Source: Microcoleus sp. bin38.metabat.b11b12b14.051
GTDB lineage: Bacteria > Cyanobacteriota > Cyanobacteriia > Cyanobacteriales > Microcoleaceae
Direction: 5' to 3'
Length of the DNA: 64,000 nucleotides
Assembly (NCBI RefSeq): GCF_013299165.1
Contig: NZ_JAAFKD010000008.1
Coordinates: 1 to 64,000 of the forward strand
The translations under genes were made by a program, and so were the position numbers. Numbering within the stretch: the first letter of the stretch is position 1; each line of letters begins with the position of its first letter. The notes under the pieces are model-generated. The model ran no database searches. It was not told the origin of the DNA and worked only from the letters and a program-made list of their open reading frames with translations. This document shows positions 41,917-59,125 of this stretch, piece by piece.

Positions 41917-41938
41917 GGCTGATACCAATTCCAAACCA

Positions 41939-42384: not shown

Positions 42385-42397
42385 ATATTTTTAGAGC

Positions 42398-42764: not shown

Positions 42765-42788
42765 ACTGGTAGACTACTGTATTGCTTT

Positions 42789-43982
42789 CTAATCAAATCG
42801 TAACTGTTTAAACGATTTAATTGGTATGCCTAGTTTATTGGCAATATTCAAAGCGAGTTGGGAATATTTAAGAACCAAATTTTTCTGACCTAACTTCTGA
42901 TAAATTCCTGCTAAATTCCATAGTACATTAATTTCGGTTAACCCGATACCAATTTCTCTGCAAATTTCTAGAGCTTCCTCCAAATATTGCAGTGCTTGTG
43001 AATAATCTTCAAATTCTAAAGGCTTATTTAGTTGTGTTTCCTTCTGTTTTGCCATAGTAATTCCAAGATTACATAATGCCTCTGCCTCCCCTGCACGATC
43101 TTTCATGTCCTGCATGATTTTTAAATGGTGTTGATGGTATTTAATAGCTTCGTCGTACTTTTCTAAACCACCGTAAGCTTGTGCCAGACTTCCCAATACT
43201 CTTCCTTGATCGGAGAGATTATCGCTTTGACGTAGAATTCTCAAACTTTCTTTCTGGTATTTGATTGCTTTGTGGAATTTTTCCTGTTGACAAAACATAA
43301 ATCCCAAGCTGTTTAGTACAGCAGCTTCTCCTTGGCAGTTTTTGTTTTTCCATGCCAGTAATAAATCTTGCCAATAGCAATCAATTGCTTGAGTATCATT
43401 ACCCAAAGATTGGTAAGCAACACCTAGACAATTCAAAATTGCTCCTTCCTGTTGAGAAGCGGGAAGTGTACGCGCAAGATCCAATGCTTGTTGATAGTAG
43501 TTAATCGCTTTTGTTAAGTTTCCTTGGGCATAATACACTTTTCCCATACCATATAAAAAAATAGTTTTATAGTCAGGATTTAGAAAATCTAAATTCTCCA
43601 AAAACTTTGTGTACAATGCTGATATTTCTTTGTAATAGCCCCAGGAAAAAAGTTGATTGTGAAGCTGGTCATTTTCATGATTAAAAATTTTAACAACTAA
43701 AATTGTTAAAGCTTGATTCCAAGCTGCTATTTCAAAAAGATGGTGAAAGGCTTCTAGTAAACCTTTCACTTTTTCCAAATTGGAAGCATTGGGCTGGGAT
43801 TGATATTTCGTAAGCCAGTTAATTACTGCTCGGTACTGGGTACGTTGCCAGTGAGATTTGATGAATTTAAGGGTATAGGGGTCAATTGCCAGTGCCACCA
43901 GAATTGACTCACCGGGAGGCATCATGTCAACTTTTTCGATAACCTGTTGCTCTCCAGTAATCAACTTATTCAGGCTACTCAT
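42789..43982 (-). CDS. TPR protein, last gene of the conflict operon
   Basis: The protein has 397 residues. The first ~120 (MPPGESILVALAIDP; RTQYRAVINWLTKYQSQPNA; LHNQLFSWGYYKEISALYTK) are homologous to residues ~1125-1240 of the 1618-residue NLR-like protein and to the N terminus of the next gene upstream. About six degenerate tetratricopeptide units follow (AQGNLTKAINYYQQALDLAR; LGNDTQAIDCYWQDLLLAWK; LEKYDEAIKYHQHHLKIMQD), ending ALNIANKLGIPIKSFKQL. It overlaps the upstream gene by 8 bases. Such TPR arrays serve as ligand-sensing or protein-binding scaffolds; here probably the detached sensor module of the NACHT proteins (inference). Confidence 0.85.
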   Translation of the reverse strand: MSSLNKLITGEQQVIEKVDMMPPGESILVALAIDPYTLKFIKSHWQRTQYRAVINWLTKYQSQPNASNLEKVKGLLEAFHHLFEIAAWNQALTILVVKIFNHENDQLHNQLFSWGYYKEISALYTKFLENLDFLNPDYKTIFLYGMGKVYYAQGNLTKAINYYQQALDLARTLPASQQEGAILNCLGVAYQSLGNDTQAIDCYWQDLLLAWKNKNCQGEAAVLNSLGFMFCQQEKFHKAIKYQKESLRILRQSDNLSDQGRVLGSLAQAYGGLEKYDEAIKYHQHHLKIMQDMKDRAGEAEALCNLGITMAKQKETQLNKPLEFEDYSQALQYLEEALEICREIGIGLTEINVLWNLAGIYQKLGQKNLVLKYSQLALNIANKLGIPIKSFKQLRFD

Positions 43983-45987
43983 GGCTGTGTTCTAATTGTT
44001 TTTTTAAGTCTCTACAGTCTTTTTCCAAGGGTATGTTTAACTCTGTGGCAATGGATAAGGCGCGATCGCAATACTCAAGAGCCAGAAGGCGATCGCCTAA
44101 CTTATCGTGAAGTATTGCTAAATTAGAGATCACTATAGCCTCAGTAGCATGATCTTCAATGCTTCGTGAAATACTGACTGCTGTCTGCAAATATTCCAAT
44201 GCTTTTGAATGTTGCTTAAGTTTCATTAGAGTGATTCCTAAATTACCCATAGCTCTTCCAACACCCGCCCGATCTCCAATTTCATTTGCTATTGTAGAAT
44301 GCTGCTCGAAGTAGGAAATTGCTTGAGGATAGTTTCCTAATGATCTATAGACAACACCCAGATTACCAAGAACCGTAGCTTCCCCTGGACGATCTTCCAA
44401 TTCTCGTGCAATAACTAAACGTTTTTCAAAATATAAAATTGCTTGTTGGTAATTTCCCAGAGAATTGTAAGCAATACCCAGATTACCCAGTGCCATACCT
44501 TCTCCCCAACGATCTGTAATTTGTTGTGCGATCGCTAAACGCTGCTTGAAGAAGGAAATCGCTTGATAATAATCTCCTATAGATCTGTAAGCAACGCCCA
44601 GATTACCTAGTGCGGCTCCTTCACCCGAACGGTCGCCAATTTCCCGTGCAATTGCTAAATCCTGCTCGAAGTAGGAAATTGCTTGACGATAATCTCCCAA
44701 GGAATTATGGACAATACCCAGATTTCCCAAAACCATCCCTTCTCCCCGACGATTTTTAATTTGTTGTGCAATCGCCAAAGCCTGCTCGAAGCAGGAAATT
44801 GCCTGACGATAATCTCCGGTCGCTCTGTAAACAGTACCCAGATTACTTAGTGCAGCCCCCTCTCCCCGGCGATCTCCAATTGCCTGTGCGATCGCCAAAT
44901 GTTTATGAAAACATGAAATCGCTTGACTATACTTTCCTAATGATTCGTAGACATTGCCTAGATTAGTTAATGCTGAGCCTTCTCCCCGGCGGTCGCCAAT
45001 TTCCCGTGCAATCGCCAATTTTTGCTCGAAGTAAGAAATCGCTTGACGATAATCTCCTTGGTAATAGTAGGCAATACCCAGATTGCCTAACGTCTCCCCT
45101 TCACCTTGGGGATTGCCTATCTGCTGTGAGATTGCCAAACGCTTCTGATGGAATTCAATCGCATGGGTATAGTCTCCCTGAGATAAGTAGGCATTGCCCA
45201 GATTCCCCAGTGCAGCCCCTTCTCCCCAACGATTAGCTATCTCTTGTTCAATAGCCAAACACTGCTGATGAAAATCAATCGCGCGGGCGTAGTCTCCCAG
45301 AGCATGGTAGACATTACCCAAACTGCCCAACGCTCCTGCTTCCCCTCGACGATTACCTATCTCCCCTGCAATGACCAAATTCTGTTGATATAACTTCATC
45401 GCACGGGTATAGTCTCCCAGGGACGAGTAGGCATTGCCCAGATTCCCCAGCGCATTACCCTCGCCTTTTCGATACCCTTTCTCTCGTGCGATCGCTAAAC
45501 ATTCCTCATGGAACTCAATCGCACGAGTGTAGTCTCCTAGAAACTGGTAGGCATTCCCCAAACCCCCTAGACAGGTAGCATCCCATTCGGAGTTTAATTT
45601 GCCTAAAAGTTTGCTGTATAAATCGATCTGTTCCCGATAATAACCCCAAGTTTGTAGCTGATTATGTAATTTTTCATTAGTGGGGGTATTGAGGGTAACT
45701 GAAGGTATGTTACCTGCTTCTTTCCAAGCTTCTACTTCACAAAGATGATAAAATGCTTCCACTAAACCCTTGATTTTTTCAATGTTAGTAACATCAGATA
45801 GGGGTTTATATTTCATTAACCAGTTTACTACAGCCCTATATTTGTTGCGTTTCCAAGGTGGTTTAATAATTTTTATAGCAGTTGGCTCGATACCCAACTG
45901 TGCCAGTATGGATTCACCGGATGGTGTGATGGACAATTTATTTAATGTTTCTCGATCTTGCTCTTCTAACTCACTGTGTTTACTCAT
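43975..45987 (-). CDS. TPR protein with thirteen near-identical repeats
   Basis: This 670-residue protein has the same N-terminal ~120-residue module (TPSGESILAQLGIEPTAIKI; RNKYRAVVNWLMKYKPLSDV; LHNQLQTWGYYREQIDLYSK). About thirteen 40-residue tetratricopeptide units follow with the consensus LGDYRQAISYFEQxLAIAR, EIGDRRGEGAALGNLGxAY. It ends LSIATELNIPLEKDCRDLKK, matching the end of the 1618-residue protein. It lacks an enzymatic domain. The highly uniform repeats suggest recent expansion. It overlaps the downstream TPR gene by 8 bases and follows the PNP gene by 37 bases. Probable sensor or scaffold partner in the conflict operon. Confidence 0.88.
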   Translation of the reverse strand: MSKHSELEEQDRETLNKLSITPSGESILAQLGIEPTAIKIIKPPWKRNKYRAVVNWLMKYKPLSDVTNIEKIKGLVEAFYHLCEVEAWKEAGNIPSVTLNTPTNEKLHNQLQTWGYYREQIDLYSKLLGKLNSEWDATCLGGLGNAYQFLGDYTRAIEFHEECLAIAREKGYRKGEGNALGNLGNAYSSLGDYTRAMKLYQQNLVIAGEIGNRRGEAGALGSLGNVYHALGDYARAIDFHQQCLAIEQEIANRWGEGAALGNLGNAYLSQGDYTHAIEFHQKRLAISQQIGNPQGEGETLGNLGIAYYYQGDYRQAISYFEQKLAIAREIGDRRGEGSALTNLGNVYESLGKYSQAISCFHKHLAIAQAIGDRRGEGAALSNLGTVYRATGDYRQAISCFEQALAIAQQIKNRRGEGMVLGNLGIVHNSLGDYRQAISYFEQDLAIAREIGDRSGEGAALGNLGVAYRSIGDYYQAISFFKQRLAIAQQITDRWGEGMALGNLGIAYNSLGNYQQAILYFEKRLVIARELEDRPGEATVLGNLGVVYRSLGNYPQAISYFEQHSTIANEIGDRAGVGRAMGNLGITLMKLKQHSKALEYLQTAVSISRSIEDHATEAIVISNLAILHDKLGDRLLALEYCDRALSIATELNIPLEKDCRDLKKQLEHSHE

Positions 45988-46024
45988 TATCTTACCTCAA
46001 GGATTTTATGATTTTTGTATCTAT

Positions 46025-47266
46025 TCAGTTAATCATTTTTTTTATTCCATTCATTACAGTTTTTTGAGACAATACATGATGCACGAGCGAAGCCGCTGCT
46101 GCAGCTGCTAAATGCTGATGCTTATTGTGTTTTTTTCCATCTCCCCAGTCGCAAATAGACTTGACTAAAATCCATGCTGTACCTACCCGCCCTGAAGCAG
46201 CACATAAACCAGCCCCTTCCATTTCTCCTCCAATTGCTTGGGGAAACTCGTCAAGTAGCTTGGCTTTAAATACTGGATCGTCAACCAATTTTTCTCCTGA
46301 TAAAATAGGGCCAATATGAATTTTAGAACTTGAACCATCAGGACAAATAAACTGCCAGTTTTGAATGTTCTCAAAACGATTCAGTAATATTGGATTACTG
46401 GGAGGAATAGCACCGCGATATACAGTTTGTTTTTCACTAACACGCTGTTGTTCATAGGAAATAATCTGGGAAGCCACGAACACATCTCCGATTTTTTGTT
46501 TTCTTGGGTCTTTACCAAAGGCTATGCCAATCATAATAATGGCTCTAGGACTCCAGAGACGTTGAGCTTGTTCAGTAGCTAAGATAACAGAGCCTTCGCC
46601 AATTGAACCCATGCGACATTTCGTAACAACAGTTTTATATGCACCAAATTTCCCGATGTAGTAGGTTTCAGGTCCAGAATAAACGAGCAAGATCTTTGCC
46701 TTTTCAGGATAAGGTTGGAGCAAGTTTGCGACTGCTTTTAATTCTGTGTCTGTTGCGGTAATGAGAACAACATCAATTTCTGATTTGATTGAGTTATCTT
46801 CTTCGTGAATTTCTTCTATTTCTGGAAAAATAGGAGCGTACCAAGATTGTTCTTCAACTTGATATTTAAATTCATCTTCTGGATGGATAAAAGACTCATT
46901 TGTTTGAAAATGTTTAAGTTTTTTGTGACCAATCGAAAGAATCTGTGTGAATACTTCTATGTGTTCGTCATTTAAGTTGTATTTTTGGGGTTGTTGAAGT
47001 AAATAATGTAGAAAGTTGACCAGTGGATGACTTGGATCTTTGCTAGAGATAGAGAAGTTTTTAAATTTGGAAACTAATATAGTGATTGATTCATTAATGT
47101 TTAGATTGAACTGAATAGACCCAAGAAAATAATTATTAATACCAGCATTTCTAAGCAATGCTAGCTTTCCAGCATCACTATCAATATTAATAAATAAATT
47201 TTGTAAAGCTGATTCTAGCCGAATAACGTCATTAATTTCTAAGTCTGAAAATATTTTAGTATTCAT
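46025..47266 (-). CDS. PNP/MTAN-type nucleosidase with N-terminal effector-associated-like domain
   Basis: The protein (413 residues) has two parts. Residues ~1-115 are an all-helical domain (LEINDVIRLESALQNLF; ALLRNAGINNYFLGSIQF; SHPLVNFLHYLLQQP) resembling the death-like effector-associated domains (EADs) that recruit effectors in bacterial conflict systems; I cannot assign the subtype. Residues ~164-405 are a phosphorylase-superfamily nucleosidase: VVLITATDTELKAV, IIMIGIAFGKDPRKQKIGDV, IGGEMEGAGLCAAS (M-E-G, ribose site) and VKSICDWGDG (catalytic Asp). Related PNP effectors in phage defence degrade ATP or other nucleotides. Its start overlaps the end of the upstream gene by 4 bases. It is probably the effector of the operon. 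Confidence 0.85.
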   Translation of the reverse strand: MNTKIFSDLEINDVIRLESALQNLFINIDSDAGKLALLRNAGINNYFLGSIQFNLNINESITILVSKFKNFSISSKDPSHPLVNFLHYLLQQPQKYNLNDEHIEVFTQILSIGHKKLKHFQTNESFIHPEDEFKYQVEEQSWYAPIFPEIEEIHEEDNSIKSEIDVVLITATDTELKAVANLLQPYPEKAKILLVYSGPETYYIGKFGAYKTVVTKCRMGSIGEGSVILATEQAQRLWSPRAIIMIGIAFGKDPRKQKIGDVFVASQIISYEQQRVSEKQTVYRGAIPPSNPILLNRFENIQNWQFICPDGSSSKIHIGPILSGEKLVDDPVFKAKLLDEFPQAIGGEMEGAGLCAASGRVGTAWILVKSICDWGDGKKHNKHQHLAAAAAASLVHHVLSQKTVMNGIKKMIN

Positions 47267-50200
47267 GAGTCTATCCTTTCTATAGTTGTCAATGTATCCT
47301 TAAGCTTCTGACACTCATTGGCTAGGGGTATGCCTAACTCTGTAGCAATGGCTAAAGCCATATCGCCAAATTCAATAGCTATATCGAGATGTCCTAAATG
47401 CTGATGCACTTCTGCCAAACTCTTCAGAGCTTCCGCTTGATTAGCACGGCTGCCAATTTCCCGAAAAATGTTGAGAGATTGCTGGAAATAATCCAGAGCT
47501 TCTACATAATTCTCAACTTGTATTAAAGTATTGCCTAAATTGCATAATGCCTCCCCTTCGGATAGAATATATCCAATTTCTCTTGCAATTTGTAACTGAT
47601 GCTGATAGCAGCTAATGGCTCGATCGTACTCACCAAGAGATTGGTAAGCAAATCCGATATTTCCTAGCGCTTCTCCTTCTCCTTGGCGATTGCCGATTTC
47701 TCTTGCAATTGCTAAACTCTGCTGCGAATATTCAATGGTCTTTCCATAATCTCCGATATTCGCATATACACTTCCCAGATTTGCAAGTGCCTGTTCTTCT
47801 CCCCTGACATCGCCAATCTCTTGTGCTATTAGCAAACTCTCTTGATTGTACTCAATTCCTTGGACATACTCTCCGATTGATTCGTAAACAACTCCCAGAC
47901 TCCCCAAAGCCATTTCCTCTCCCCTGCGATCGCCGATTTCTCTTGCAATTTTTAAACTCTGCTGATAATACTCAATCGCCATTTCGTATTCTCCTTGGTA
48001 TAGGTGAAAAGCACCTATATTAGCTAATGCTTGTCCTTCATCAAAGCGATTGTTGATTTGTCGTGCGATCGCTAAACTCTGCTGCGAATATTCAATTGTC
48101 TTAGAATAATTTCCTAGACTCGCATATACACTTCCCAGATTTGTAAGTGCCTGTGCTTTTCCCCTAAGATCGCCAATCTCTTGTGCTATTTTTAAGCTGT
48201 GTTGATGACACTCAATTGCTCTAACATACTCTCCCATAAGAAAATAAAGTTTTCCTAAATTTACGAGAGCATTCTCCTGCCCTAAATCGTCTTGAATTTC
48301 CCGTGCAATAGTCAAACTTTGTTGTAGATAGTCCATCGCTCTTCTATAGTCTCCCAAAATATAGTAACTATTGCCTAAAGTATTTAATAAATTAATATCA
48401 AAGCTACCATTTAGTTTGCCTAGTATTTGGCTACATACTTCTATTTGTTCGCGATAGTAGCTCCAAATTCCCAGTTGTTTATATAATTCTTCTTGGCTCG
48501 GAGTATTAATGCGAGTCAAAAGTATTTTGCTAGCTGCTTCCCAATTCTCTACGTTACAGAGATGTCCAAATGCTTCCAAGTATCCCCTAACTTTGTCTAG
48601 GTTGGAAGCATCGGGCTGTGGGTGATATTGTGTCAGCCAATTTATTACAGCTTTATACTGCGTCCGTCGATGGCGTAAAGTTATGCCTTTTATATAATTT
48701 CCGTCTATACCTAGTTTAGCAAGCACCAACTCGCCATCAGGTGTTATATTTATTTCCCTGTCATCATCTTCGTCCAGTTGTTTTAGGTGTTCAAGCGACA
48801 CACTCCGAATTAAATTGTGCTGCCTTAACAAAGATCGATCGCCTTCAACGACTTCTTCCACTAAGTAGCGATCGCGCAACGCATCCAGCGCCACCTGCTG
48901 TTCATCTTCATCCCGATCCCAATCCTCCAAATGTGACAGCCAAAAATCCTCCGGTACTGGACAGCGATACACCGAAGCTTCGCAGAGCAATATATAGGCA
49001 TAGCGAACATCTTTTTGCAACCGATTAAAAGTTTTTTCTAGTCGAAATCGCACATTCCTTCGTAAGTTGCGCGTGTATCGATGCAGGTTGAACTTATCAT
49101 CGGCTGATGCTGTTATTCCCTTAGTCTTCGCTTCCTCGATCGCCTTCTCAACCTCTTCTACTTCACGTCCGTACTGGTTCCAGTAAGTCACAACATTACC
49201 ATCAAAAGGCTGATTTCTAATTTCTCCAGCAATTACTCGCAACGCCAACGGATAACCCTCGTATGCACGCCCAATCCTTTCTAGATAATGTCTACCTGGT
49301 GAATTTATACTAATTTCTAGCCCAGCTTTCTCAAACAATGCCAACCGTTCCCGTTCTTCCAATCCGCTCAAAGGTTGACAATACCAAAAATTTTGATACC
49401 TCGTTCCTATTGTTGGGATTTGAGAGGGTAAATCTTGCGAAGTTAGGATGATACAGCTTTCACAAGAATCTGCTGCTAGCAAACTTTCAAAAAATCGCAC
49501 CCACCACTCATCTTTAAAATCACTCCATCCCTCTTCCTCATTTCCCTGTAGAAGGTTCTCCAAAGAATCAATCTGCACCAAATAGCGATTCTCTGTTAGA
49601 TGTCTCACCAATCGATAGAGCAGGCGTTGAGTATCTTTACGGTCTTCCGGCGTGATTAATTCTCCCCATTTTTCCAGCCAGCGGGCAGCAACGCTAGCAA
49701 AATCTGAGGTTTGCTGTTCGTCATCAAAGTTTTCTTGATGATAGTGCGACCAGTCATTTTCAAACCAGTCGGCAACTTCTACTGCTAATCTTTCGCCAAG
49801 AGCCGTTTTACCAATCCCTGTGATACCAACCAACATCAGCAGGCGGCAATTACTACGAATACGATCGCTCAAATCCCGAATCAGGTTGTCCCGACCAACC
49901 CATCTATCATCAAGTGCAAAGAAATTAAGAGGACGAACTTGAGTTTCTTGCAAACTCTCACTTGCAGTAGACTGAGACTCCTCACGAAAAAGCTGTTTAC
50001 GCTCACGAGGTGGCAAGGTGCGTAATATACCTACGCCTGGTTTGGGCGTCCGAAGTTGATTAGTCAATCGGCGGTAAAGCGATTCATATCCATCTGCTGT
50101 ATCCAGTCTGTAAAAGGTAGCACTACGAAGGGGACTAGGGATAAATTCAGAATCTTGAGCAGTAAAGGCGATTGGAATAAACTTTGAATTCTTCCCTTGG

Positions 50201-52119
50201 GCATCATAGAGTTCCTGAATGATGACACCTCCTTCCCAAGTTACCCCCTTTCCTTTTCCTGTTTCTTCCTGTCCTCGGAATCTTCGATCGTACTGCTGCG
50301 TACACACTATCAGGGCATAATCTGATGCTTCGACTTGATTAAGCATCCAGCGTTGCCATCCTTCAGGCGGCGAATCTTCGTACTGGTCAATATTACAGTC
50401 AATACCATCCTCGCGAAAGCGATCGGCAAGTGCCAGTACCGATTCTTTGTGTTCTTGGGAATCATGACTGTAACTGATAAAAACTTTTGGCGGTGTAGAG
50501 CCAAAATTCATGGTTTGAGCAGATTTAGGTAAAAGGAGTGGCAGAGTAGATTGTTCGGAAGATGCCTTACCCGCCTCCTCAATCTGAAGCTTCGCCAAAA
50601 TCTCAAAAGCAAACGCACTTGCATTGCGTGCAGCCATTTCCTGAGAACCACGCGCATCAGCTTTACTTTTACCATCAATCCAGTCAAAAATTCCACGGAC
50701 AACCAGTACCGATACTTGGTGATTGGCATAAGCCGCTTGTAGCAAGTCCCCCCCCTCTATCTCCAGGGCTACCGCATCACCATAGTTCAACTGGATAAAC
50801 TTAAAAACATCAGACTTTCTGGAGGTAATCAATTTCTCCCCCCCCGCAACAATCGGCGCAACGAATACGCGGGGGGTTGTATTGGGTGCAGATGCCAGCC
50901 TTTGCAGCCAGTCCGATTTCTTCGACTCAGCCATCGATCGCTGGATTAAGCTGTATGTAGATCGCCCTAAATCGGGTCTGGGTTGAAATTTCTGTTTTGC
51001 CTTGCCAGACTCGTCGTAACCATAGACTTTCGTCGCGGCTACCACATCACCGATCGCCACATCTTTGATACCTCCAGCCACTCCCACAGACATTATGACA
51101 CTGGGATTGAAATAGGCGATCGCTCTTTCCGCCTCTACCCCTACCCCCACACCCATCTTACCTAAACCTAGCTTAACAATGCCAACTTCCCATGACTTCC
51201 CGTTGGCAATAAATTTGCCGCGTTCGTAAATTGTGCCTTGGGGGTGCATTTCTTCTCGGAGGTCGGTCAGATGGCTGCAACTTGCTATATACTCTATATT
51301 CAGACAAGTAATTATCAATGCACGTCCAACTGCAATTGGAGTTGTTTCTACAGGCTTAATTGCTATATCTTCTAGCCAATTCCAAATAACAGGAGAAAGC
51401 ATCATTAACTCCCTATTTCCTGTTTTAATTTGTATTTTTTCTTCGGTAATCTTTTCTCTTAAATCCTCTTCTTCTCCATAAAATATCTGTGCCAAAGCGC
51501 GTGAAGTATTTACCAAGTATTGTCGATACGACCACAAATCAATGCTAGTGCGTTCTAGTGGCTCAGCTAAAATTTCTACTATTTTGGGAATTTCTATTTG
51601 ACCTGGCAAACCCAATATAGGGTTTTCTTCTGGTAAACTTTCATCTAAAAAATCCGTTAATTCCTCAACTACTCGATCGGGATTTAGATAAGCTTGAGCA
51701 ATCCACTTTTGAGTACGAGTTTGTTCCGGGCGCTGCTTCCACTCAGGCTGGTTTTTCAAATAAATTCCTAAAAAATCTGCAATCTCAAATGGTCGCCTCC
51801 AACCAAACCGATTTTCCAATTCAACCAACAAAACTTCCCGCACGCAGGGTTCTACTTCAAAAACTCCCCGATCCATAGGGCGACAGAGGGGTGATAGGAG
51901 AAAATCACTTTCAGCAATCCAAGATACATTTTCACTATCTAGAAAATTGATATTAATTAAATTGACTAACTCTGGACTCAGAAATAATGGTAGCGCCGCA
52001 TGACAAGCTAGGGACAAGTGCTTCATGCCAAAACGTCGCTCAAAAGCTACTACCTCCCGAACAGCAAATTCGGGGGGTAGCCATTGCCTTCTGATAACTG
52101 CTTCCAGGGTTTTAATCAT
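47263..52119 (-). CDS. NLR-like protein: adaptor-PNP-SEFIR-NACHT-TPR
   Basis: The product has 1618 residues in five parts. Residues ~1-165 (WLPPEFAVREVVAFERRFG; LACHAALPLFLSPELVNLIN; LCRPMDRGVFEVEPCVREVL) are the helical adaptor that fronts many cyanobacterial proteins encoded beside MoxR and vWA genes. A nucleosidase domain follows at ~265-512 and a SEFIR (TIR-like) domain at ~545-690 (KVFISYSHDSQEH; GVTWEGGVIIQEL). The STAND/NACHT NTPase at ~738-1100 has Walker A VGITGIGKTALG (765-776) and YLVQIDSLENLL. Then a ~120-residue linker and nine TPRs (~1245-1610). The nucleosidase site is altered (E-I-E-G for E-M-E-G; G-I-F-D for G-I-S-D). It overlaps the vWA gene by 8 bases. Confidence 0.88.
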   Translation of the reverse strand: MIKTLEAVIRRQWLPPEFAVREVVAFERRFGMKHLSLACHAALPLFLSPELVNLININFLDSENVSWIAESDFLLSPLCRPMDRGVFEVEPCVREVLLVELENRFGWRRPFEIADFLGIYLKNQPEWKQRPEQTRTQKWIAQAYLNPDRVVEELTDFLDESLPEENPILGLPGQIEIPKIVEILAEPLERTSIDLWSYRQYLVNTSRALAQIFYGEEEDLREKITEEKIQIKTGNRELMMLSPVIWNWLEDIAIKPVETTPIAVGRALIITCLNIEYIASCSHLTDLREEMHPQGTIYERGKFIANGKSWEVGIVKLGLGKMGVGVGVEAERAIAYFNPSVIMSVGVAGGIKDVAIGDVVAATKVYGYDESGKAKQKFQPRPDLGRSTYSLIQRSMAESKKSDWLQRLASAPNTTPRVFVAPIVAGGEKLITSRKSDVFKFIQLNYGDAVALEIEGGDLLQAAYANHQVSVLVVRGIFDWIDGKSKADARGSQEMAARNASAFAFEILAKLQIEEAGKASSEQSTLPLLLPKSAQTMNFGSTPPKVFISYSHDSQEHKESVLALADRFREDGIDCNIDQYEDSPPEGWQRWMLNQVEASDYALIVCTQQYDRRFRGQEETGKGKGVTWEGGVIIQELYDAQGKNSKFIPIAFTAQDSEFIPSPLRSATFYRLDTADGYESLYRRLTNQLRTPKPGVGILRTLPPRERKQLFREESQSTASESLQETQVRPLNFFALDDRWVGRDNLIRDLSDRIRSNCRLLMLVGITGIGKTALGERLAVEVADWFENDWSHYHQENFDDEQQTSDFASVAARWLEKWGELITPEDRKDTQRLLYRLVRHLTENRYLVQIDSLENLLQGNEEEGWSDFKDEWWVRFFESLLAADSCESCIILTSQDLPSQIPTIGTRYQNFWYCQPLSGLEERERLALFEKAGLEISINSPGRHYLERIGRAYEGYPLALRVIAGEIRNQPFDGNVVTYWNQYGREVEEVEKAIEEAKTKGITASADDKFNLHRYTRNLRRNVRFRLEKTFNRLQKDVRYAYILLCEASVYRCPVPEDFWLSHLEDWDRDEDEQQVALDALRDRYLVEEVVEGDRSLLRQHNLIRSVSLEHLKQLDEDDDREINITPDGELVLAKLGIDGNYIKGITLRHRRTQYKAVINWLTQYHPQPDASNLDKVRGYLEAFGHLCNVENWEAASKILLTRINTPSQEELYKQLGIWSYYREQIEVCSQILGKLNGSFDINLLNTLGNSYYILGDYRRAMDYLQQSLTIAREIQDDLGQENALVNLGKLYFLMGEYVRAIECHQHSLKIAQEIGDLRGKAQALTNLGSVYASLGNYSKTIEYSQQSLAIARQINNRFDEGQALANIGAFHLYQGEYEMAIEYYQQSLKIAREIGDRRGEEMALGSLGVVYESIGEYVQGIEYNQESLLIAQEIGDVRGEEQALANLGSVYANIGDYGKTIEYSQQSLAIAREIGNRQGEGEALGNIGFAYQSLGEYDRAISCYQHQLQIAREIGYILSEGEALCNLGNTLIQVENYVEALDYFQQSLNIFREIGSRANQAEALKSLAEVHQHLGHLDIAIEFGDMALAIATELGIPLANECQKLKDTLTTIERIDS
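49565..50330. repeat. Near-identical tract shared with 56368-57133
   Basis: This part of the 1618-residue protein gene, covering the C-terminal SEFIR and N-terminal NACHT regions, matches the paralogous gene with constant offset 6803 and only about half a dozen differences by eye, while flanking parts of the two genes differ clearly. See the matching feature at 56368. Confidence 0.8.
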
Positions 52120-53239
52120 CTAACCCAACTCCTGATGGAAATGGATGTCCCTGCAAAATTTTAACTGTATCATTTAAGCCTTCTTTATCCAAAGGAAACA
52201 TCGGCACCAGATGGGCAATATCCTCAGCCGTAGTTACTTTCCAGCGGACGGCAGGCACGGGATTTAACCAGGCATATAAATAAGTATAGGCGCTCAAAAT
52301 CTTCAAAAAAGCTTTGGTGTCTGCTAATCGTCGCCCGTCGTAAGAACCCCGCGCTGCCCCAGCATCGCTGAAAATCAGCACGCTGTTACTCTTGGCTTGG
52401 TCAGACAAGACTTCTTCCATAGGAACAGGAACAGTTAGGTTAGGTTGCTCGAAAAGAAAGCCCTCTGGACAGTCGTGAAAGTAGTAAGTTCTCGTTTTAC
52501 CCAAAAGCCCCCCTTTTTCTATGCTTTCTTGCAATGCGTCAATTAGCAGTGTAAAGGGAACCATTGAACCCTCACAGTCTATTAATAATATAAGTTTAAC
52601 TTGGTTGCGACGGCGAGGCTGTAAAACGGGACTTCGCAAAAAGCCGGTTAGGCAGATGTCCTTGATTGTACCGTCTACATCCAAATCTTCTGGGATACCT
52701 TCTCGTCGCAGACGGCGTAGATGTCGCCAAATACTAGCCATCTCTCGCATACTAATAGGTAAACGAGGTGTGAGATGGTATTTAATTTCTGGCTGAATAG
52801 ATTCACTTTTCTCTAATGAGATATGACGAGGGGATAAGGAAGTAACAGCTCTCTGGAAATCGTATTTTTGAGATTTTGTCCTGAATTCCTGTTTTTTTTG
52901 GTTGCCAAAGCCTTTTTTGCTGGTTGAATATGAGGATGAAGCATTAGAGTTCGAGGTAAATTTATCCCTATTCAAAGTAGAGTTTAGTGATTTGGGTTTA
53001 ATGCTTGCCTCCAGCCGAGGTTTAACCCATTGAGCGAAAGCGATATCAAATATTTCTTGGTCTTCTTTTGATTTAGCCCACAGCAAACGTAGAAAGCGTT
53101 CCAATCTCTCAACATCTTCTAATCCTACCCCTTCGCGAACAGCTTTAGTTGCCAGCAAATACTCTGATACCCCCAGAGGCATACCCTGCTTGCGTAAATC
53201 GTTAAACAATAGCGACAGAAATGACTCAACTTTAATCAT
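52112..53239 (-). CDS. vWA-domain protein of a MoxR-vWA system
   Basis: The protein (375 residues) starts with a helical domain (~1-75: FLSLLFNDLRKQGMPLGVSE; VGLEDVERLERFLRLLWA) usual in CoxE/SAV_2336-like proteins that partner MoxR ATPases. A basic Ser-rich linker follows (about 80-150), then a C-terminal vWA-type domain (~210-370). Its MIDAS motif reads LLIDCEGSM, D-x-E-x-S instead of D-x-S-x-S, so metal coordination may be altered. It continues with LIFSDAGAARGSYDGRRLAD. In ternary VMAP systems this protein links the MoxR chaperone to the adaptor-effector protein. It lies 9 bases after the MoxR gene and overlaps the 1618-residue gene by 8. Confidence 0.85.
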   Translation of the reverse strand: MIKVESFLSLLFNDLRKQGMPLGVSEYLLATKAVREGVGLEDVERLERFLRLLWAKSKEDQEIFDIAFAQWVKPRLEASIKPKSLNSTLNRDKFTSNSNASSSYSTSKKGFGNQKKQEFRTKSQKYDFQRAVTSLSPRHISLEKSESIQPEIKYHLTPRLPISMREMASIWRHLRRLRREGIPEDLDVDGTIKDICLTGFLRSPVLQPRRRNQVKLILLIDCEGSMVPFTLLIDALQESIEKGGLLGKTRTYYFHDCPEGFLFEQPNLTVPVPMEEVLSDQAKSNSVLIFSDAGAARGSYDGRRLADTKAFLKILSAYTYLYAWLNPVPAVRWKVTTAEDIAHLVPMFPLDKEGLNDTVKILQGHPFPSGVGLDD

Positions 53240-53248
53240 GTTATTCTT

Positions 53249-54211
53249 TTACTTTAATCCCTTGAGTTTATCTAAGGCATTGAGATCATTTTGAGTTTTA
53301 ACTATAGTGTCGAAATAAGGTAGTTGGCTTAAATCAATTTCAGCTAATTGTTTAGGTGTTAATTTGTTTTTTAGCTCGTCTCGCTCCAAAAGTCGCAACC
53401 AGTTGATAAACTCGCTAGTGCTGGGTTTTTTACGCCAGGGAAAACTTTTTTGATGTCGCAGTTTCCAAAACTTTTTTAAGGCTTCTTCAAAAAGAGGCGA
53501 AATTGCTTTTTGGAAATGGCTTGTAACAATATTAGTAAGTTCTTCCTCTTGAGGAAAATCAATGTAGTAAAAAAGGCAGCGACGCAAAAAAGCTTGAGGT
53601 AATTCTTTTTCTCGATTGCTTGTAATGATAATCAAAGGTAAAAAATCTCTTCTTTCTTCAGATGTCTTCCCTTGAAGAGCATCAAATTTCCAGCCCTTGA
53701 CTTCATCTACCTCAAACTGTAATTTATCTAGCACTAAAAGCAGGTCATTCGGAAAATCTATATCAGCCTTATCAATTTCATCAATTAATACTACGGACGG
53801 AATATTGTTTTGCGAAAGTTCAATTGCTTCGCCTAGTTTACCTAATTCTACATAGTCTCTGCGAGCAAGTATTTTATCTTGACTATCAGATATTTTTTTT
53901 TCTTGAATGTCATATAATCGCTGAACAGCATCGTAAGTATAAAGTAAATCTTGTGCGCGACTGGTAGAGCGAATATAGCATTCTTTTAACGAATAACCAA
54001 GTTCATAAGCTACTGCATAAGCAAGCCTAGTTTTGCCACAACCCGGTTCCCCTTCTAGCAGTAGCGGACGACGAAGATACAGAGCATCATTAACCGCTTC
54101 AGCTAACCTTGGGGGAGCTATGTAAGGCTCTGGAACTAATTGTACGTCTTTGAGTGATTCATAGCGACAATTGCCATCGCCTGTGTATACCCGATTTTTA
54201 AATTCATTCAT
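53249..54211 (-). CDS. MoxR-type AAA+ ATPase
   Basis: MoxR ATPases remodel or activate partner proteins carrying vWA domains. The ATG at 54211 (AAAGGA about 10 bases upstream) gives 320 residues beginning MNEFKNRVYTGDG; starts at 54295 (ATG) or 54301 (TTG) would add up to 30 poorly conserved residues. Motifs: IAPPRLAEAVNDALYLRRPL, Walker A LEGEPGCGKTRLA (about 50-60), Walker B VVLIDEIDKADIDFPNDLL, sensor 1 LIIITSNREKELP and the arginine finger in QAFLRRCLFYYIDF. It lies 9 bases upstream of the vWA gene, so the pair is almost certainly one functional unit. Confidence 0.92.
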   Translation of the reverse strand: MNEFKNRVYTGDGNCRYESLKDVQLVPEPYIAPPRLAEAVNDALYLRRPLLLEGEPGCGKTRLAYAVAYELGYSLKECYIRSTSRAQDLLYTYDAVQRLYDIQEKKISDSQDKILARRDYVELGKLGEAIELSQNNIPSVVLIDEIDKADIDFPNDLLLVLDKLQFEVDEVKGWKFDALQGKTSEERRDFLPLIIITSNREKELPQAFLRRCLFYYIDFPQEEELTNIVTSHFQKAISPLFEEALKKFWKLRHQKSFPWRKKPSTSEFINWLRLLERDELKNKLTPKQLAEIDLSQLPYFDTIVKTQNDLNALDKLKGLK

Positions 54212-54313
54212 AGTTTTAAGATCCTTTAACTTTGCTCTCGACCTATTATGACGAAATATATCCTTGGAATTAGTGTATTTCGCCAGAAGCTGCATCCACA
54301 AAATATTAATTAA

Positions 54314-55426
54314 TTACACAACTAAATTCCCCCTTTGTAATTCAGAAATAATATACTGCAATTCCTGATAAGTTCCAATTAAGTGTCCGTGCTGACTTTG
54401 CAATCTTACGAGGTATCGCTCGATAACATAATCTTCTATATCTAGTTGTTTGAGACGACCTCGAAACCACTGCGATAGATTCGTAGTGTCAAACTCTTTA
54501 GGAATGGTTATATTTGTCAAGCCATTTATATGGTGTTCAAACCCAACATTAGCAAAAATAATTACAAAACAACGGCTCGTTTGTTTGATAAAAGGGTTAA
54601 CTTCTATTCTACTTTTCTCAAAAAAATTCATAGCAACAGATTCCATATCTTTTCTGATTTTTTCTGGTATATCATATAACCAAATAATTAATACAATATC
54701 CAGGTAAGCTTCCGTAAAAAACCAATCCACAATGTTTTGACATTCGTGGCAAATTTTAAGCTTAGATTCTATAACTTCTCCTCCTGTTAATATATCATTT
54801 GCATAGAGGCGAACATCCAGTTTTTTGTAAGGTCGCTCAGTCTTAGATTTTAGATCCCGCAATATCCGCTCAATTATATAGTCTTTAAGCATCGTATCAT
54901 GACCGCTGATGGCAAAAGCAAATGTTCCCTCATAACCTACTCGCTGTTTAAACTCATACTCTAAAGATTCTAAGTCATAACCAACTATAATTTCCTTGTC
55001 AATTTTTGCAGGTTGTGAATTGGGTGGTTCTTGTGGTTGTTCTTGTCTAGCCCTAGCCAGTAAATCATTGTAATTTGTGTGCCTTGGTTGAAATTCTGAA
55101 TTTTCTATTGTCTGGTTGTATTTAACAATTAATTTTGTGATAAATTCATGTTCATCAGTTGTTTCTTTAAATTTATACTTAAAATACTCTAAAAATATAA
55201 TTAAAATTATTTTTTTAGATGAACCATCATAGTGGTATTGATTTGTAGCTTGAGCCAAGAATATTTCCACAAATTCTTTTGGCGGGCAACTGTAGCTTAC
55301 ATCTAATTGATTTTCGATATTACAATTAGACATCACAGACTTTAAATATTTAGGACTACAACCGCTAAAATGTTCATTCATAATTCCTTGTAACTTTTCT
55401 ATTTCATCAAACTGAAGACATTTCAT
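54314..55426 (-). CDS. EAD-like plus inactive STAND (iSTAND) protein
   Basis: The 370-residue product has an N-terminal helical domain (~1-105: FDEIEKLQGIMNEHF; FVEIFLAQATNQYHYDG; FLEYFKYKFKETTDEHEFI) that looks like an effector-associated domain. A linker (110-145) follows. The C-terminal domain has a STAND-like layout, but its P-loop position reads FAISGHDTMLKDYI (about 171-184), with no GxxGxGK(S/T), so nucleotide binding is probably lost. Further on come VLIIWLYDIPEKIRKDM and CFVIIFANVGFEHHI, then a helical end (ELQYIISELQRGNL). iSTAND domains with EADs are a hallmark of VMAP conflict systems. It is 12-102 bases upstream of moxR, depending on that start. Confidence 0.72.
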   Translation of the reverse strand: MKCLQFDEIEKLQGIMNEHFSGCSPKYLKSVMSNCNIENQLDVSYSCPPKEFVEIFLAQATNQYHYDGSSKKIILIIFLEYFKYKFKETTDEHEFITKLIVKYNQTIENSEFQPRHTNYNDLLARARQEQPQEPPNSQPAKIDKEIIVGYDLESLEYEFKQRVGYEGTFAFAISGHDTMLKDYIIERILRDLKSKTERPYKKLDVRLYANDILTGGEVIESKLKICHECQNIVDWFFTEAYLDIVLIIWLYDIPEKIRKDMESVAMNFFEKSRIEVNPFIKQTSRCFVIIFANVGFEHHINGLTNITIPKEFDTTNLSQWFRGRLKQLDIEDYVIERYLVRLQSQHGHLIGTYQELQYIISELQRGNLVV

Positions 55427-55550
55427 TGAATAGCCTTACCAACCTTTATATATGTTTGGGATAAAATTACGATCAAATTTAAGTACCATTAAGGAGTTAC
55501 CCCGTTAAATCAAAGCTTTGGCTTAAGCTGTTGGTGTTTGACTTAATAAC

Positions 55551-58133
55551 TCACTTAGTTGACTCGTCATCTTCGCCCAGTTGTTTTAAATGTTCAAGAG
55601 ATACACCCCGGATTAAATTGTGCTGCCTTAACAAATATCGATCACTTTCAACGAATTCTTCCACTAAATAGCGATCGCGCAACGCATCCAGCGCTACCTG
55701 CTGTTCCTCTTCATCCCGATCCCAATCCTCCAAATGTGACAACCAAAAATCCTCTGGTACTGGACAGCGGTACACCGAAGCTTCGCACAACAATATATAG
55801 GCATAGCGAACATCTTTTTCCAATCGATTAAAAGTCTTTTCTAGTCTGACTCGCACATTCCTTCGCAAACTGCGCGTGTATCGATGCAGACTAAACTTAT
55901 CATCGGCTGATGCTGTTATTCCTTTAGTCTTAGCTTCCTCGATCGCCTTTTCAACTTCCTCTACTTCCTTACCATACTGATTCCAGTAAGCCAGAACATT
56001 ACCAGCAAAAGGCTGATTTCTAATTTCTCCAGCAATCACCCGCAACGCTAAAGGATGTCCTTCATAAGCACTTCCAATCCTTTCTAAATAGGGTTTACCT
56101 GCTGAGTCTATATCAATATCTAACCCTGTTTTTTCAAATAATGCCAACCGTTCTATTTCTTCCAGTCCACTCAGAGGTTGACAATACCAGAAATTTTGAT
56201 ACCTGGTTCCTATTGTTGGTATCTCAGCAGGTAAATCTTGGGAAGTTAGGATAATACAGCTTTCACAAGAATCTGCTGCTAGCAAACTTTCAAAAAATCG
56301 CACCCACCACTCATCTTTAAAATCACTCCATCCCTCTTCTTCATTCCCCTGTAGAATGTTCTCTAAAGAATCAATCTGCACCAAATAGCGATTCTCTGTT
56401 AGATGTCTCACCAATCGATAGAGCAGGCGTTGAGTATCTTTACGGTCTTCCGGCGTGATTAATTCTCCCCATTTTTCCAGCCAGCGGGCAGCAACGCTAG
56501 CAAAATCTGAGGTTTGCTGTTCGTCATCAAAGTTTTCTTGATGATAGTGCGACCAGTCATTTTCAAACCAGTCGGCAACTTCTACTGCTAATCTTTCGCC
56601 AAGAGCCGTTTTACCAATCCCTGTGATACCAACCAACATCAGCAGGCGGCAATTACTACGAATACGATCGCTCAAATCCCGAATCAGGTTGTCCCGACCA
56701 ACCCATCTATCATCAAGTGCAAAGAAATTAAGAGGACGAACTTGAGTTTCTTGCAAACTCTCACTTGCAGTAGACTGAGACTCCTCACGAAAAAGCTGTT
56801 TACGCTCACGAGGTGGCAAGGTGCGTAATATACCTACGCCTGGTTTGGGCGTCCGAGGTTGATTAGTCAATCGGCGGTAAAGCGATTCATATCCATCTGC
56901 TGTATCCAGTCTGTAAAAGGTAGCACTACGAAGGGGACTAGGGATAAATTCAGAATCTTGAGCAGTAAAGGTGATTGGAATAAACTTTGAATTCTTCCCT
57001 TGGGCATCATAGAGTTCCTGAATGATGACACCTCCTTCCCAAGTTACCCCCTTTCCTTTTCCTATTTCTTCCTTTCCTCGGAATCTTCGATCGTACTGCT
57101 GCGTACACACGATCAGGGCATAATCTGATGCTTCGACTTGATTAAGCATCCAGCGTTGCCATCCTTCATGGGGCGAATCTTCATACTGATCGATATTGGA
57201 ATCAATCCCATCTTCACGAAGGCGATCGGCAAGTGCCAGTACCGATTCTTTGTGTTCTTGGGAGTCATGGCTATAGCTGATAAAAACTTTTGGAGGTTTA
57301 GGCTCAGAATTCATGGTTCGATCGGATTCAGGTAAACGAAGCAGTAAAGTAGATTGTTGAGAAGATGGCTTAGCTGTCTCCTCAATTTGAAGCTTCGCCA
57401 ACACTTCAAAAGCAAACGCACTTGCATTGCGAGCAGCAATTTCCTGAGAGCCACCCGCATCAGCTTCTTTCTTACCATCAATCAGATCGGAAATCCCACG
57501 GATAACCAGCGCCCATACTTGGTGATTGGCATGAGCAGCTTGCAGTAAGCCTCGCCCCTCCATCTCCACAGCTACCGCATCACCATAGTTCAATTGAATA
57601 AACTGAAAAACTCTGGACTGAGTTGAAGCAATCACCTTTTCCCCAGCAGCAATCGGTGCAACGAATACGCGAGGGGTAGAACCCGGTAGAGGTGCCAGTC
57701 TTTGCAGCCAGTCAGATTTCCTAGACTCAGCCCTAGCTCGATGGATTAGATTGTATGTAGAAAGCCCTACATCTGGTCTGGGTTGAAATTTCTGTTTTGC
57801 CTTGCCAGGTTCCTTGCCAGATTCATAGCCATAGACTTTCGTGGCCGCTACCACGTCACCAAGGGCTACATCCTTGATGCCTCCAGCAATACCTACAAAG
57901 AATATGACGCTGGGATTGAAATAGGCGATCGCCCGTTCCGCCTCAACTGCTGCTCCCGCATTACCTGCACCCACCTCAACAATCCCGACTTCCCAAGACT
58001 TCCCGTTAGCAGCAAATTTGCCACGCTCGTAAATCGTTCCTTGGGGGTGCATCTCCTCCCGGAGGTCGTCAATATGGGTGCGAACAGCCATATACTCAAT
58101 GGGGAGAGCAGTTACGATAACTGCACAAGGCAT
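55551..58133 (-). CDS. NLR-like protein: PNP-SEFIR-NACHT, without TPR
   Basis: The protein has 860 residues and is the first gene of the operon; AAGGGGGT lies 7-8 bases before the ATG. Residues ~1-250 are a nucleosidase domain with an intact-looking site (VTALPIEYMAV; VGIAGGIKDVALGDVV; AVAVEMEGRGLLQAA near 190; IRGISDLIDG near 215). Residues ~281-425 are SEFIR (KVFISYSHDSQEHK; GVTWEGGVIIQEL). Residues ~475-855 are a STAND/NACHT NTPase (Walker A VGITGIGKTALG, 502-513). It ends HLKQLGEDDESTK, exactly where the 1618-residue paralogue continues into its TPR module. It has no N-terminal adaptor. It could pair with the free TPR proteins (inference). Confidence 0.88.
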   Translation of the reverse strand: MPCAVIVTALPIEYMAVRTHIDDLREEMHPQGTIYERGKFAANGKSWEVGIVEVGAGNAGAAVEAERAIAYFNPSVIFFVGIAGGIKDVALGDVVAATKVYGYESGKEPGKAKQKFQPRPDVGLSTYNLIHRARAESRKSDWLQRLAPLPGSTPRVFVAPIAAGEKVIASTQSRVFQFIQLNYGDAVAVEMEGRGLLQAAHANHQVWALVIRGISDLIDGKKEADAGGSQEIAARNASAFAFEVLAKLQIEETAKPSSQQSTLLLRLPESDRTMNSEPKPPKVFISYSHDSQEHKESVLALADRLREDGIDSNIDQYEDSPHEGWQRWMLNQVEASDYALIVCTQQYDRRFRGKEEIGKGKGVTWEGGVIIQELYDAQGKNSKFIPITFTAQDSEFIPSPLRSATFYRLDTADGYESLYRRLTNQPRTPKPGVGILRTLPPRERKQLFREESQSTASESLQETQVRPLNFFALDDRWVGRDNLIRDLSDRIRSNCRLLMLVGITGIGKTALGERLAVEVADWFENDWSHYHQENFDDEQQTSDFASVAARWLEKWGELITPEDRKDTQRLLYRLVRHLTENRYLVQIDSLENILQGNEEEGWSDFKDEWWVRFFESLLAADSCESCIILTSQDLPAEIPTIGTRYQNFWYCQPLSGLEEIERLALFEKTGLDIDIDSAGKPYLERIGSAYEGHPLALRVIAGEIRNQPFAGNVLAYWNQYGKEVEEVEKAIEEAKTKGITASADDKFSLHRYTRSLRRNVRVRLEKTFNRLEKDVRYAYILLCEASVYRCPVPEDFWLSHLEDWDRDEEEQQVALDALRDRYLVEEFVESDRYLLRQHNLIRGVSLEHLKQLGEDDESTK
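56368..57133. repeat. Near-identical tract shared with 49565-50330
   Basis: The same offset (6803) holds at both ends, so no indels separate the copies. Single-base differences include A/G near the GGGCGTCCGAGG site, C/T in AGTAAAGGTGATTGG and three in the CCTATTTCTTCCTTTCC segment. The high local identity against diverged flanks points to gene conversion between the two NLR genes. Confidence 0.8.
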
Positions 58134-58355
58134 ATTTTGACCCCCTTATTTGGTTTGAGTGTAGAATTCTATTCTTTATTCTGACGGTTTCATCAGTAAT
58201 TTGCCTACCCTAAAAACCGAACAAAGTTCTGTCGATCGCGAATACCCTCCTTAACTTCAGGCAAGTTGTGGTATTTTCCATGCCCCAAGAATTAAAATAT
58301 TGTTAGGCGATCGCCCCAAGGGCAGCACTTTTGTGACGAAATCTCTATCAAGTAC

Positions 58356-58466
58356 AGTCCTGGACGCATCAAGAGCGAAGAAACCGGGCTTTTCACCTAA
58401 TCTGCGGACTACAGCGAAGAATGTTCGTGAAAAACCCGGTTCTCGGCCACCGGTGCGTCCAGGACT
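58356..58466. repeat. 111-bp palindromic element, AAACCCGGTT family, copy 2
   Basis: Perfect 13-base inverted ends AGTCCTGGACGCA (58356-58368) and TGCGTCCAGGACT (58454-58466). Inside is a second inverted pair around AAACCGGGCTTTTCAC and GTGAAAAACCCGGTT. No clear target duplication is seen. The 126-codon minus-strand frame across it is spurious. The rest of 58134-58510 is spacer that must carry the promoter of the conflict operon (minus strand) and of the next gene (plus strand). Confidence 0.75.
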
Positions 58467-58510
58467 AAAGTAGCTCAAAACGCGCCATCCATAAACTTGA
58501 GGAAAACAGT

Positions 58511-59062
58511 ATGAGCGATCGAGAAAAAATATTTCAAGTATATCTACAAGAATATGAAAAATTAAAAGCAGAGCAGACGCAGCGAATAGGCTTTCGCGAC
58601 AACCTGATTTACGCCACCCTCGGAGTATTTGGTACAATAGTCACCTTTGCCGTCTCCAGTCAAACAAATTATAATGCACTTCTGATTGTTCCTTGGGTTT
58701 GTCTGGTTTTAGGCTGGACTTATTTGGTCAACGACGAAAAAATATCGGCGATCGGCAGATACATTCGACTAACTCTAGTAGAAAAAATCAAAGAACAGAC
58801 TGGTCACACAGACGTTGAATCTATTTTTGGATGGGAAATAGCCCATAGAAATGACACCCGCCGCAAACGGCGCAAGATAGAACAGTTGATTGTTGACCAA
58901 ATTACCTTTGTTATTTCTGGAATAGTTGCCTTGATAGCCTTTTGGTTTGTCGTATCAAAGCCTCCCTTAGCAATTAGCATTATTTGGTGGATAGAACTGG
59001 TACTGCTGCTAATTTTGGGGGTAGAAATCATCATTTACGCGGACTTGGCAAAAGGTCGATAA
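58511..59062 (+). CDS. Four-helix membrane protein
   Basis: The protein (183 residues) has four predicted membrane segments in two pairs: about 30-50 and 56-75, then 135-155 and 160-178, joined by a charged loop (EKIKEQTGHTDVESIF; RNDTRRKRRKIEQLI). The N terminus is a charged helix (EKIFQVYLQEYEKLKAEQ). I recognise the general shape as a family of small cyanobacterial membrane proteins but no named domain. It is divergent from the first gene of the conflict operon. Two-pair membrane proteins act as effectors or sensors in some conflict systems, but nothing ties this one to the operon apart from position. Confidence 0.75.
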   Translation: MSDREKIFQVYLQEYEKLKAEQTQRIGFRDNLIYATLGVFGTIVTFAVSSQTNYNALLIVPWVCLVLGWTYLVNDEKISAIGRYIRLTLVEKIKEQTGHTDVESIFGWEIAHRNDTRRKRRKIEQLIVDQITFVISGIVALIAFWFVVSKPPLAISIIWWIELVLLLILGVEIIIYADLAKGR

Positions 59063-59079
59063 TGGAATTGATATCTAAA

Positions 59080-59110: not shown

Positions 59111-59125
59111 ATTTCAAACTAGCTT

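Follow-up and report, generated by a model that had tools for sequence, protein, structure and literature searches.

Organization of the Gene Block

The window, by which the whole stretch of 64,000 nt analyzed here is meant (Microcoleus sp. contig NZ_JAAFKD010000008.1, positions 1-64,000), contains an inserted block of ~16 kb (42772..59127, not assigned to a strand) that was delimited by comparing its flanks with those of congeners. The block is a candidate conflict cassette and holds eight genes, designated A to H, on the minus strand, and a divergent gene, designated M, on the plus strand. All coordinates given below for A-H and their domains refer to the minus strand.

Gene A (55551..58133) encodes a protein of 860 amino acids (aa) with a PNP domain (57399..58121; Pfam PF01048, 4e-25), a SEFIR domain (56907..57293; PF08357, 4e-17) and a NACHT/STAND NTPase region (56013..56708), in which the matches to AAA_16, NACHT and NB-ARC lie below the curated cut-offs and the P-loop (GITGIGKT at residue 502) is intact. 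The protein has no TPR. Gene B (54314..55426) gave no family match in scans with Pfam, PADLOC or NCBIfam and is composed of an EAD8-like domain (residues 1-112) and a predicted inactive STAND module, as discussed below. Gene C encodes a MoxR-type AAA+ ATPase with Walker A and B motifs; its open reading frame (ORF) begins at a TTG at 54301, and the ATG at 54211, which gives a gene at 53249..54211, aligns with the ORF starts of five relatives. Gene D (52112..53239) codes for a CoxE-like vWA protein (PF05762, 6.2e-8). The product of gene E (47263..52119; 1618 aa) combines an N terminus resembling a vWA linker (residues 1-262; 51334..52119) with a PNP domain (50560..51333), a SEFIR domain, a NACHT region, whose AAA_16/NACHT matches again stay under the curated cut-offs, and TPRs. 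Gene F (46025..47266) encodes an EAD8-PNP protein of 413 aa (EAD8, 1.4e-13; PNP, 2.3e-16), whilst G (43975..45987) and H (42789..43982) encode TPR proteins with the same NACHT-TPR junction domain, as found with Pfam and BLAST. For G, the best 25 of 35 Pfam domain matches were considered, here and below. P-loops are present in A, C and E.

The ORFs overlap by 8 (D/E), 4 (E/F) and 8 (G/H) bases or are separated by 124 (A/B), 12 (B/C; 102 when C is read from its ATG), 9 (C/D) and 37 (F/G) bases. These coordinates agree with the original prediction, made from the sequence alone, of eight minus-strand genes that overlap by 8, 4 and 8 bases or leave gaps of 9 to about 124. The scans likewise bear out the PNP, SEFIR, NACHT, EAD-like, MoxR, vWA and TPR domains listed there, including the presence of two SEFIR domains, with the provisos just given for NACHT and for B. 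No Rfam family scored above its cut-offs across the window.

A Single Insertion

In a search of 29 genomes of the genus, sdhA was found in 28, the own genome included, and the stretches beside it could be obtained from 20 of the 27 congeners. The left flank of the block and sdhA lie only 53-3324 bases apart in 18 of these 20 stretches; in the remaining two (L093 and L108), one flank alone was found. In L095 (genome G001), 53 bases separate the counterparts of window positions 42771 and 59128. Among the remaining relatives, most have a left alignment that ends near 42385-42394, and four have one that ends at 41917-41935 or before. Neither M nor any of the genes A-H was detected by tblastn (1e-5) in the 20 stretches, whilst the sdhA control was found in all 20. 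Since the flanks are close together and the genes are absent, M and A-H must have come or gone together. Thus, they constitute one lineage-specific insertion, which was either gained or differentially lost.

These data bear on several earlier claims. The eight genes had been regarded as one defence operon; a single inserted, multigene unit of the conflict type is indeed present, but it is larger than eight genes, because the divergent gene M, which had been missed, belongs to the insertion. Scattering of the genes over related genomes, an outcome named as speaking against their joint action, was not observed, because the window genome has a single insertion and some of its parts recur together elsewhere; for the same reasons, the proposed joining of a MoxR/vWA module with PNP-SEFIR-NACHT proteins is supported.

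Between the sequences around the two ends of the insertion (42701-42900 and 59001-59200), no 10-mer is shared in direct or inverted orientation, and an insertion mechanism is, therefore, not proposed. Directly to the left of the insertion, a gene for a putative endonuclease of the Uma2 family (41029-41916) aligns in 13 of the 20 congener stretches and partly in one more. Further left, several overlapping, self-similar alignments to relatives at 40576-40990 suggest a tandem repeat.

The Ternary Module

Published iSTAND2 systems (PMC8195603) consist of an EAD1-, EAD8- or bDLD3-iSTAND2 protein, MoxR and a vWA protein, whilst a vWA linker is encoded together with effectors by a gene of its own. 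The architecture of genes B-E conforms to this scheme.

The structure of B was modeled from an alignment of 32 rows (mean predicted local distance difference test score, pLDDT, 77.2). The best Foldseek match of the model was a chain of a plant NLR resistosome (6j5t_C, E 1.6e-4), followed by ORC, Cdc6-MCM, Apaf-1 and other AAA+ chains; altogether, 16 PDB chains matched at E<=0.001, with TM-scores on the query of just 0.2-0.3. A P-loop is found in none of the 32 aligned rows. Because of this absence and the match to the STAND/AAA+ fold, B is considered to contain an inactive STAND module, consistent with the degenerate STAND that had been proposed. Residues 1-112 of B match the EAD8 family of F (hhalign probability 96.6, as compared with 0.3 and 0.1 for the MoxR and TPR controls). 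They also match the C-terminal tails encoded by relatives of the PNP genes in the ternary loci of Okeania and Trichodesmium (99.4). Among 37 matches to the B profile, precomputed Pfam annotation lists EAD8 (PF19961) in two (P0259 and P0268), EAD1 (PF19955) in one, and PF19956, which we take to be EAD2, in one. Thus, as judged from profile comparison and modeling, B is predicted to be an EAD-iSTAND-type protein and the third component of the ternary module.

The MoxR gene C directly adjoins the vWA gene D. The metal-site motif in vWA domains is canonically DxSxS. In D, this motif reads DCEGS (residues 221-225; window 52565-52579), and DCESS, DCEGS and DHQGS are found in three aligned relatives; hence, metal binding by D may be altered. 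The N-terminal linker of E was matched by BLAST in all 20 other MoxR-vWA loci inspected (L031-L050), always in a gene located after the vWA gene on the same strand, with more than 1 kb in between in L042, L047 and L050. From this position, the N terminus of E would be the counterpart of the published vWA-L. A second EAD copy is carried by the neighboring enzyme F.

The gene order PNP, iSTAND, MoxR, vWA, linker gene is complete in L031-L034, with PNP and iSTAND fused in L034; L035 gave no iSTAND match. In the Trichodesmium locus L032, the linker gene (11706-13949) carries Roc-COR GTPase domains. MoxR of the close subtype (E<=1e-80) is rarely met, having been found in three of 386 genomes of the phylum and five of 61 of the family, the own genome being included in both counts, and in four of 217 genomes in the family of G154. 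Eleven loci of this subtype were inspected (the window, L031-L035, L052, and L058-L061), eight of which contain a PNP of some kind; L058 is a contig of just 4.7 kb, and 15 of the 30.6 kb of the contig of L033 were covered.

The NLR-Type Genes

E has a STAND NTPase with P-loop, an N-terminal effector domain and C-terminal repeats, as in proteins of the NLR/bNACHT type. A lacks such repeats, and TPRs are encoded by separate genes. The possibility that A is a truncated NLR was rejected, as A-type proteins that are ~850 aa long and have no TPR are common in the best 120 of its 1766 relatives.

In three cyanobacterial clusters (L109, L115 and L121), the genes are ordered M, PNP-SEFIR-NACHT, TPR-PNP, TPR, and no ternary genes are found within the stretches examined. 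In the PNP, F shares 80% identity with the TPR-PNP genes of L109 and L115, and 64% with the one of L121. In the window, the order is M-A-[B-C-D-E]-F-G-H. Thus, with the B-E block located between A and F-G-H, and with such clusters existing without ternary genes, the window appears to contain an NLR-type cluster in which a ternary module is embedded.

Parts of this combination are found elsewhere. Floridanema aerugineum has relatives of A (83%), B (74%), M (73%) and E, presumably on one contig; its relative of E (P0068) has the architecture linker-PNP-NACHT-TPR, without SEFIR. L059 encodes SEFIR-NACHT-EAD8, EAD-iSTAND, MoxR in two pieces, vWA, linker-NACHT-TPR-EAD8 and EAD8-PNP proteins, with no M and no A-type PNP within its contig of 25 kb. 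In L052, a metagenome-assembled genome of Calothrix, a vWA gene and a linker gene occur with a gene for EAD8-PNP-NACHT, and PNP-NACHT-EAD8 fusions exist in P0082 and L122, which possibly represent the same protein. Full-length PNP-SEFIR-NACHT matches outside the own genome were found neither among 98 relatives, with up to nine candidates scored per genome, nor among 386 genomes of the phylum, with up to two; both sets count the own genome.

The PNP domains in the block differ in their conservation. That of A deviates at two of 105 near-invariant positions. In E, 12 of 104 such positions are changed, and seven in each of two other E-type copies, against a median of one in 77 A-type rows, two of which reach eight and seven. 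The position of an Asp that we assume to be catalytic is kept in the window copy of E and is Glu in the Floridanema copy. Judged from these alignments, the PNP of E is probably an eroded, weakened copy. The PNP of F retains the EMEG and D motif positions, which are presumably catalytic as well. Therefore, the three nucleosidase domains that had been counted are present as domains, but one of them looks eroded.

A and E share an identical run of 492 nt (56365..56856 in A; 49562..50053 in E) and three further runs broken by single differences, over codons 357-589 of A. As nucleotide identity in the PNP blocks of the two genes is 71-84%, these near-identical runs suggest that recent gene conversion between A and E is likely. 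In a tree of PNPs, in which 12 of 27 inner branches are well supported, ternary and NLR-associated PNPs are intermixed, which suggests that PNPs change context; no other use is made of this tree.

M and Its Association With PNP

M (58511..59062, plus strand) is a protein of 183 aa with four predicted transmembrane segments, encoded divergently from A. It belongs to no Pfam family. Its AlphaFold model shows four long helices at moderate confidence (mean pLDDT 75.5) and has no match at E<=0.001 in PDB or BFVD. Candidate assignments to SLATT or S-4TM were not sustained, as S_4TM was matched in two of 40 rows with a best E of 0.18 and SLATT was not among the best 25 of 33 families. Of 2278 candidates, 1959 are related to M at E<=0.001, and 50,697 phage records gave no match at that threshold. 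In the titles and abstract openings searched, with few subscription journals covered, no description of an M-type protein was found.

In a search with M alone of 324 genomes of the order, the own one included, M was found in 33, yielding 40 rows and, after fragments on the same contig were merged, 38 places. M has 57 invariant positions in an alignment of 40 rows and a charged central stretch between hydrophobic pairs. A PNP-profile match lies within 5 kb of M at 30 of the 38 places (29 by script, plus the window), and at 20 of these 30 (19 by script, plus the window) M is divergent from the PNP and less than 700 bases away. No PNP match was found in 35 control loci (15 with other MoxR genes and 20 with sdhA; 575,870 bases). 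Also, on all six plasmid records with M, a PNP is nearby; five of these were read, and Leptolyngbya boryana IU 594 was judged from match coordinates.

The link extends to an actinobacterial plasmid, pLBRS of Streptomyces sp. M54, which encodes an M relative that is 43% identical over 79%. There, a row of genes (L087:3998-8504) encodes a NUDIX protein, a PNP, a protein of 656 aa that matches no Pfam family and, finally, M. On the small Nostoc plasmid pn6 (L074:8226-11605), M and PNP are located beside a gene of the protelomerase family. The genome of the window has a second M-PNP locus (L066; G000:C1:262130-266786), in which a PNP-NB-ARC gene (609 aa) and M are on the same strand, 2.3 kb apart. 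In L126:1063-5359, M has an EAD1-PNP-VMAP-C gene and a MoxR-like one as neighbors, i.e., the link occurs there in what looks like a VMAP system.

Of 32 PNP proteins chosen for a Pfam scan at 1e-5, 31 come from loci with M and the remaining one from L033; the scan found AAA_16 in 13, NB-ARC in four, SEFIR in four, SIR2 in three, PIN-TPR-GreABC in three, VMAP-C in one and GUN4 in one. It is conceivable, at somewhat below even chances, that M and a PNP enzyme form a portable two-part device, in which the enzyme would produce or destroy a purine signal and M, as the member of an undescribed family, would be its dedicated membrane effector. This device would be plugged into several classes of sensor, two of which would share it in the window. 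In cyanobacteria, these sensor classes would be NACHT-TPR, NB-ARC, the iSTAND2 ternary module, the VMAP ternary module and SIR2- or TPR-GreA/B-C-PIN-linked proteins, the latter two being possibly the same three proteins. M also stands beside a PNP in at least one actinobacterium.

Comparison With Known Systems

The closest described counterparts of the ternary part are the iSTAND2 MoxR-vWA systems. Both have an EAD-iSTAND-type protein, MoxR, a vWA protein, a linker with effector in a separate gene, and an extra enzyme fused to EAD8. However, in PMC8195603, the linked domain is mostly trypsin and rarely a cNMP cyclase, whereas it is PNP in the window, where, moreover, SEFIR-NACHT-TPR is added on the linker gene and M is present alongside. 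The word SEFIR does not occur in the main texts of PMC8195603 and PMC7159879.

With the VMAP ternary systems (PMC7159879), the block shares MoxR, vWA and coupling through EADs, and a PNP-superfamily domain is among the enzymes of those systems. In contrast, A-H lack a VMAP domain. No VMAP-C was found in them by Pfam at E<=0.01, within the matches considered for G, whilst the same library detects this domain in the L126 gene. The label "VMAP-like" given to the module in the original prediction is, therefore, not supported, and a VMAP reading of the third component was rejected. The idea that the two classes of system have been described only apart is not supported either, as NACHT-clade STANDs occur sporadically in ternary systems according to PMC7159879, and NACHT in a vWA protein appears in PMC10907252.

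The cyanobacterial PNP(-SEFIR)-NACHT and TPR clusters of the NLR/bNACHT-like type (L109, L115, L121 and L073) have M, PNP-SEFIR-NACHT or PNP-NACHT, and TPR genes in common with the window, and the first three also possess a second PNP, on a TPR protein. They differ by the absence of a B-E ternary block in the stretches examined. The SEFIR region of A matches the PADLOC bSEFIR family PDLC03957 at 9.4e-55, but in the window SEFIR is flanked by PNP and NACHT and is part of a multigene block. Detocs, with its ATP-cleaving PNP effector (PMC11249213), offers a precedent for a PNP-superfamily enzyme as the proposed killing effector; unlike Detocs, A-H contain no kinase or receiver family detectable by Pfam, again among the matches considered for G. 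The occurrence of SLATT beside PNPase or TIR is noted in PMC7159879, and these systems resemble the block in that a small protein with multiple transmembrane segments is located beside a nucleotide enzyme, but M has no significant match to SLATT or S-4TM.

Possible Function

Gene content and order, the single insertion, the presence of EAD8-like domains in both B and F, the linker carried by E, the recurrent neighborhoods and the M-PNP link were all computed directly. On this basis, the reading we favor, by a modest balance of probability, is that the block is a conflict cassette, most likely for phage defence by abortive infection, in which B, C, D and the linker of E make up an iSTAND2-type ternary module that is nested in an NLR-type PNP-SEFIR-NACHT/TPR cluster of M, A, F, G and H. 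Comparative sequence evidence makes a defence cassette with PNP as its enzyme and M as predicted membrane partner likely. In such a cassette, the NACHT proteins with their TPR partners would provide one sensing or gating input, and the assembly of EAD-iSTAND protein, MoxR and vWA protein a second one. As the architecture suggests, these sensors would gather the PNP domains of A and F and switch them on. By analogy with Detocs (PMC11249213), the PNP might then cleave a purine nucleotide or nucleoside, with either the depletion or the product being decisive, and M, judged from its neighborhood, could act at the membrane as a pore or as a partner of the enzyme, whereupon growth would stop. SEFIR may serve as a scaffold or contribute a second enzyme, of the NAD type, whilst the PNP of E would probably be a weakened copy used for binding.

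Several observations weigh against this reading. The full hybrid is seen base by base in the window only, and promoter-like consensus sites are not in excess over chance (37, with 36.9 expected). The C-terminal PNP tails that resemble the EAD8-like domain of B match the EAD8 family of F directly with a hhalign probability of 6.4, so that the EAD families join up only in part. The identical tract in A and E could partly be an effect of assembly. M is present in five of the 11 loci of the close MoxR subtype (the window, L031, L032, L034 and L035), with L052 and L058 being too short for a decision; in L060 and L061, there is no match to M or to PNP, and L060 carries EAD8-trypsin, the pairing stressed in PMC8195603. 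At eight of the 38 places, M has no PNP within 5 kb: in L086, it is 6.6 kb away; L113 and L132 are at contig ends; L117, L119 and L125 have none; and in L129 and L130, no M is left by profile. At four of the 30 places with a PNP (L031, L111, L122 and L127), the nearest match is a fragment of 64-135 aa; in L031 and L122, however, a complete PNP gene also lies less than 5 kb from M.

Alternatively, two independent systems may lie side by side, i.e., a ternary one including F and E and a separate NLR-type one formed by M, A, G and H, with their nesting an accident of insertion. Clusters of M, A-type and TPR genes do exist without ternary genes in the stretches examined (L109, L115, L121, L073 and L075), as do ternary loci without an A-type NACHT (L031, L032 and L034). 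However, E unites the ternary linker with PNP-SEFIR-NACHT-TPR in a single protein, L059 includes SEFIR-NACHT-EAD8 and linker-NACHT-TPR-EAD8 proteins in its ternary module, and both the PNP-NACHT-EAD8 fusions (P0082 and L122) and the presumed common contig of the Floridanema relatives make such an arrangement rather unlikely. A somewhat better, although still doubtful, case can be made for M as an antitoxin-like safety device that inhibits PNP or tethers it to the membrane, instead of being the output effector. Its divergent orientation, seen at 19 places besides the window, its strong conservation, its charged central stretch and the lack of a recognized pore fold would all suit that role, but PNP genes of the same clade occur without M in the stretches examined of L033, L070 and L071.

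That the block serves nucleotide or stress signaling or developmental cell death, and not phage defence, seems improbable. The preponderance of such systems in multicellular prokaryotes (PMC7159879) would fit with it, but the patchy presence with empty sites in congeners, the copies of M and PNP on plasmids and the matches to PADLOC families do not. Least probable of all is that SEFIR or NACHT alone does the work, with the PNP domains serving as inactive modules for binding; whereas the eroded PNP of E and the statement, in PMC7159879, that modules are acquired "typically in inactive form" point in that direction, the near-complete conservation of the PNP of A and the motif positions retained in F point away from it.

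Concluding Remarks

If the nested defence cassette favored here is real, M, a small membrane protein without a Pfam family, would be the partner so far missing for the PNP enzymes of several predicted immune systems, and the M-PNP pair would allow for a simple two-gene test of PNP-domain function. As its cassette unites a ternary conflict system with one of the NLR type, this Microcoleus locus could, furthermore, show whether the MoxR/vWA machinery gates an NLR.

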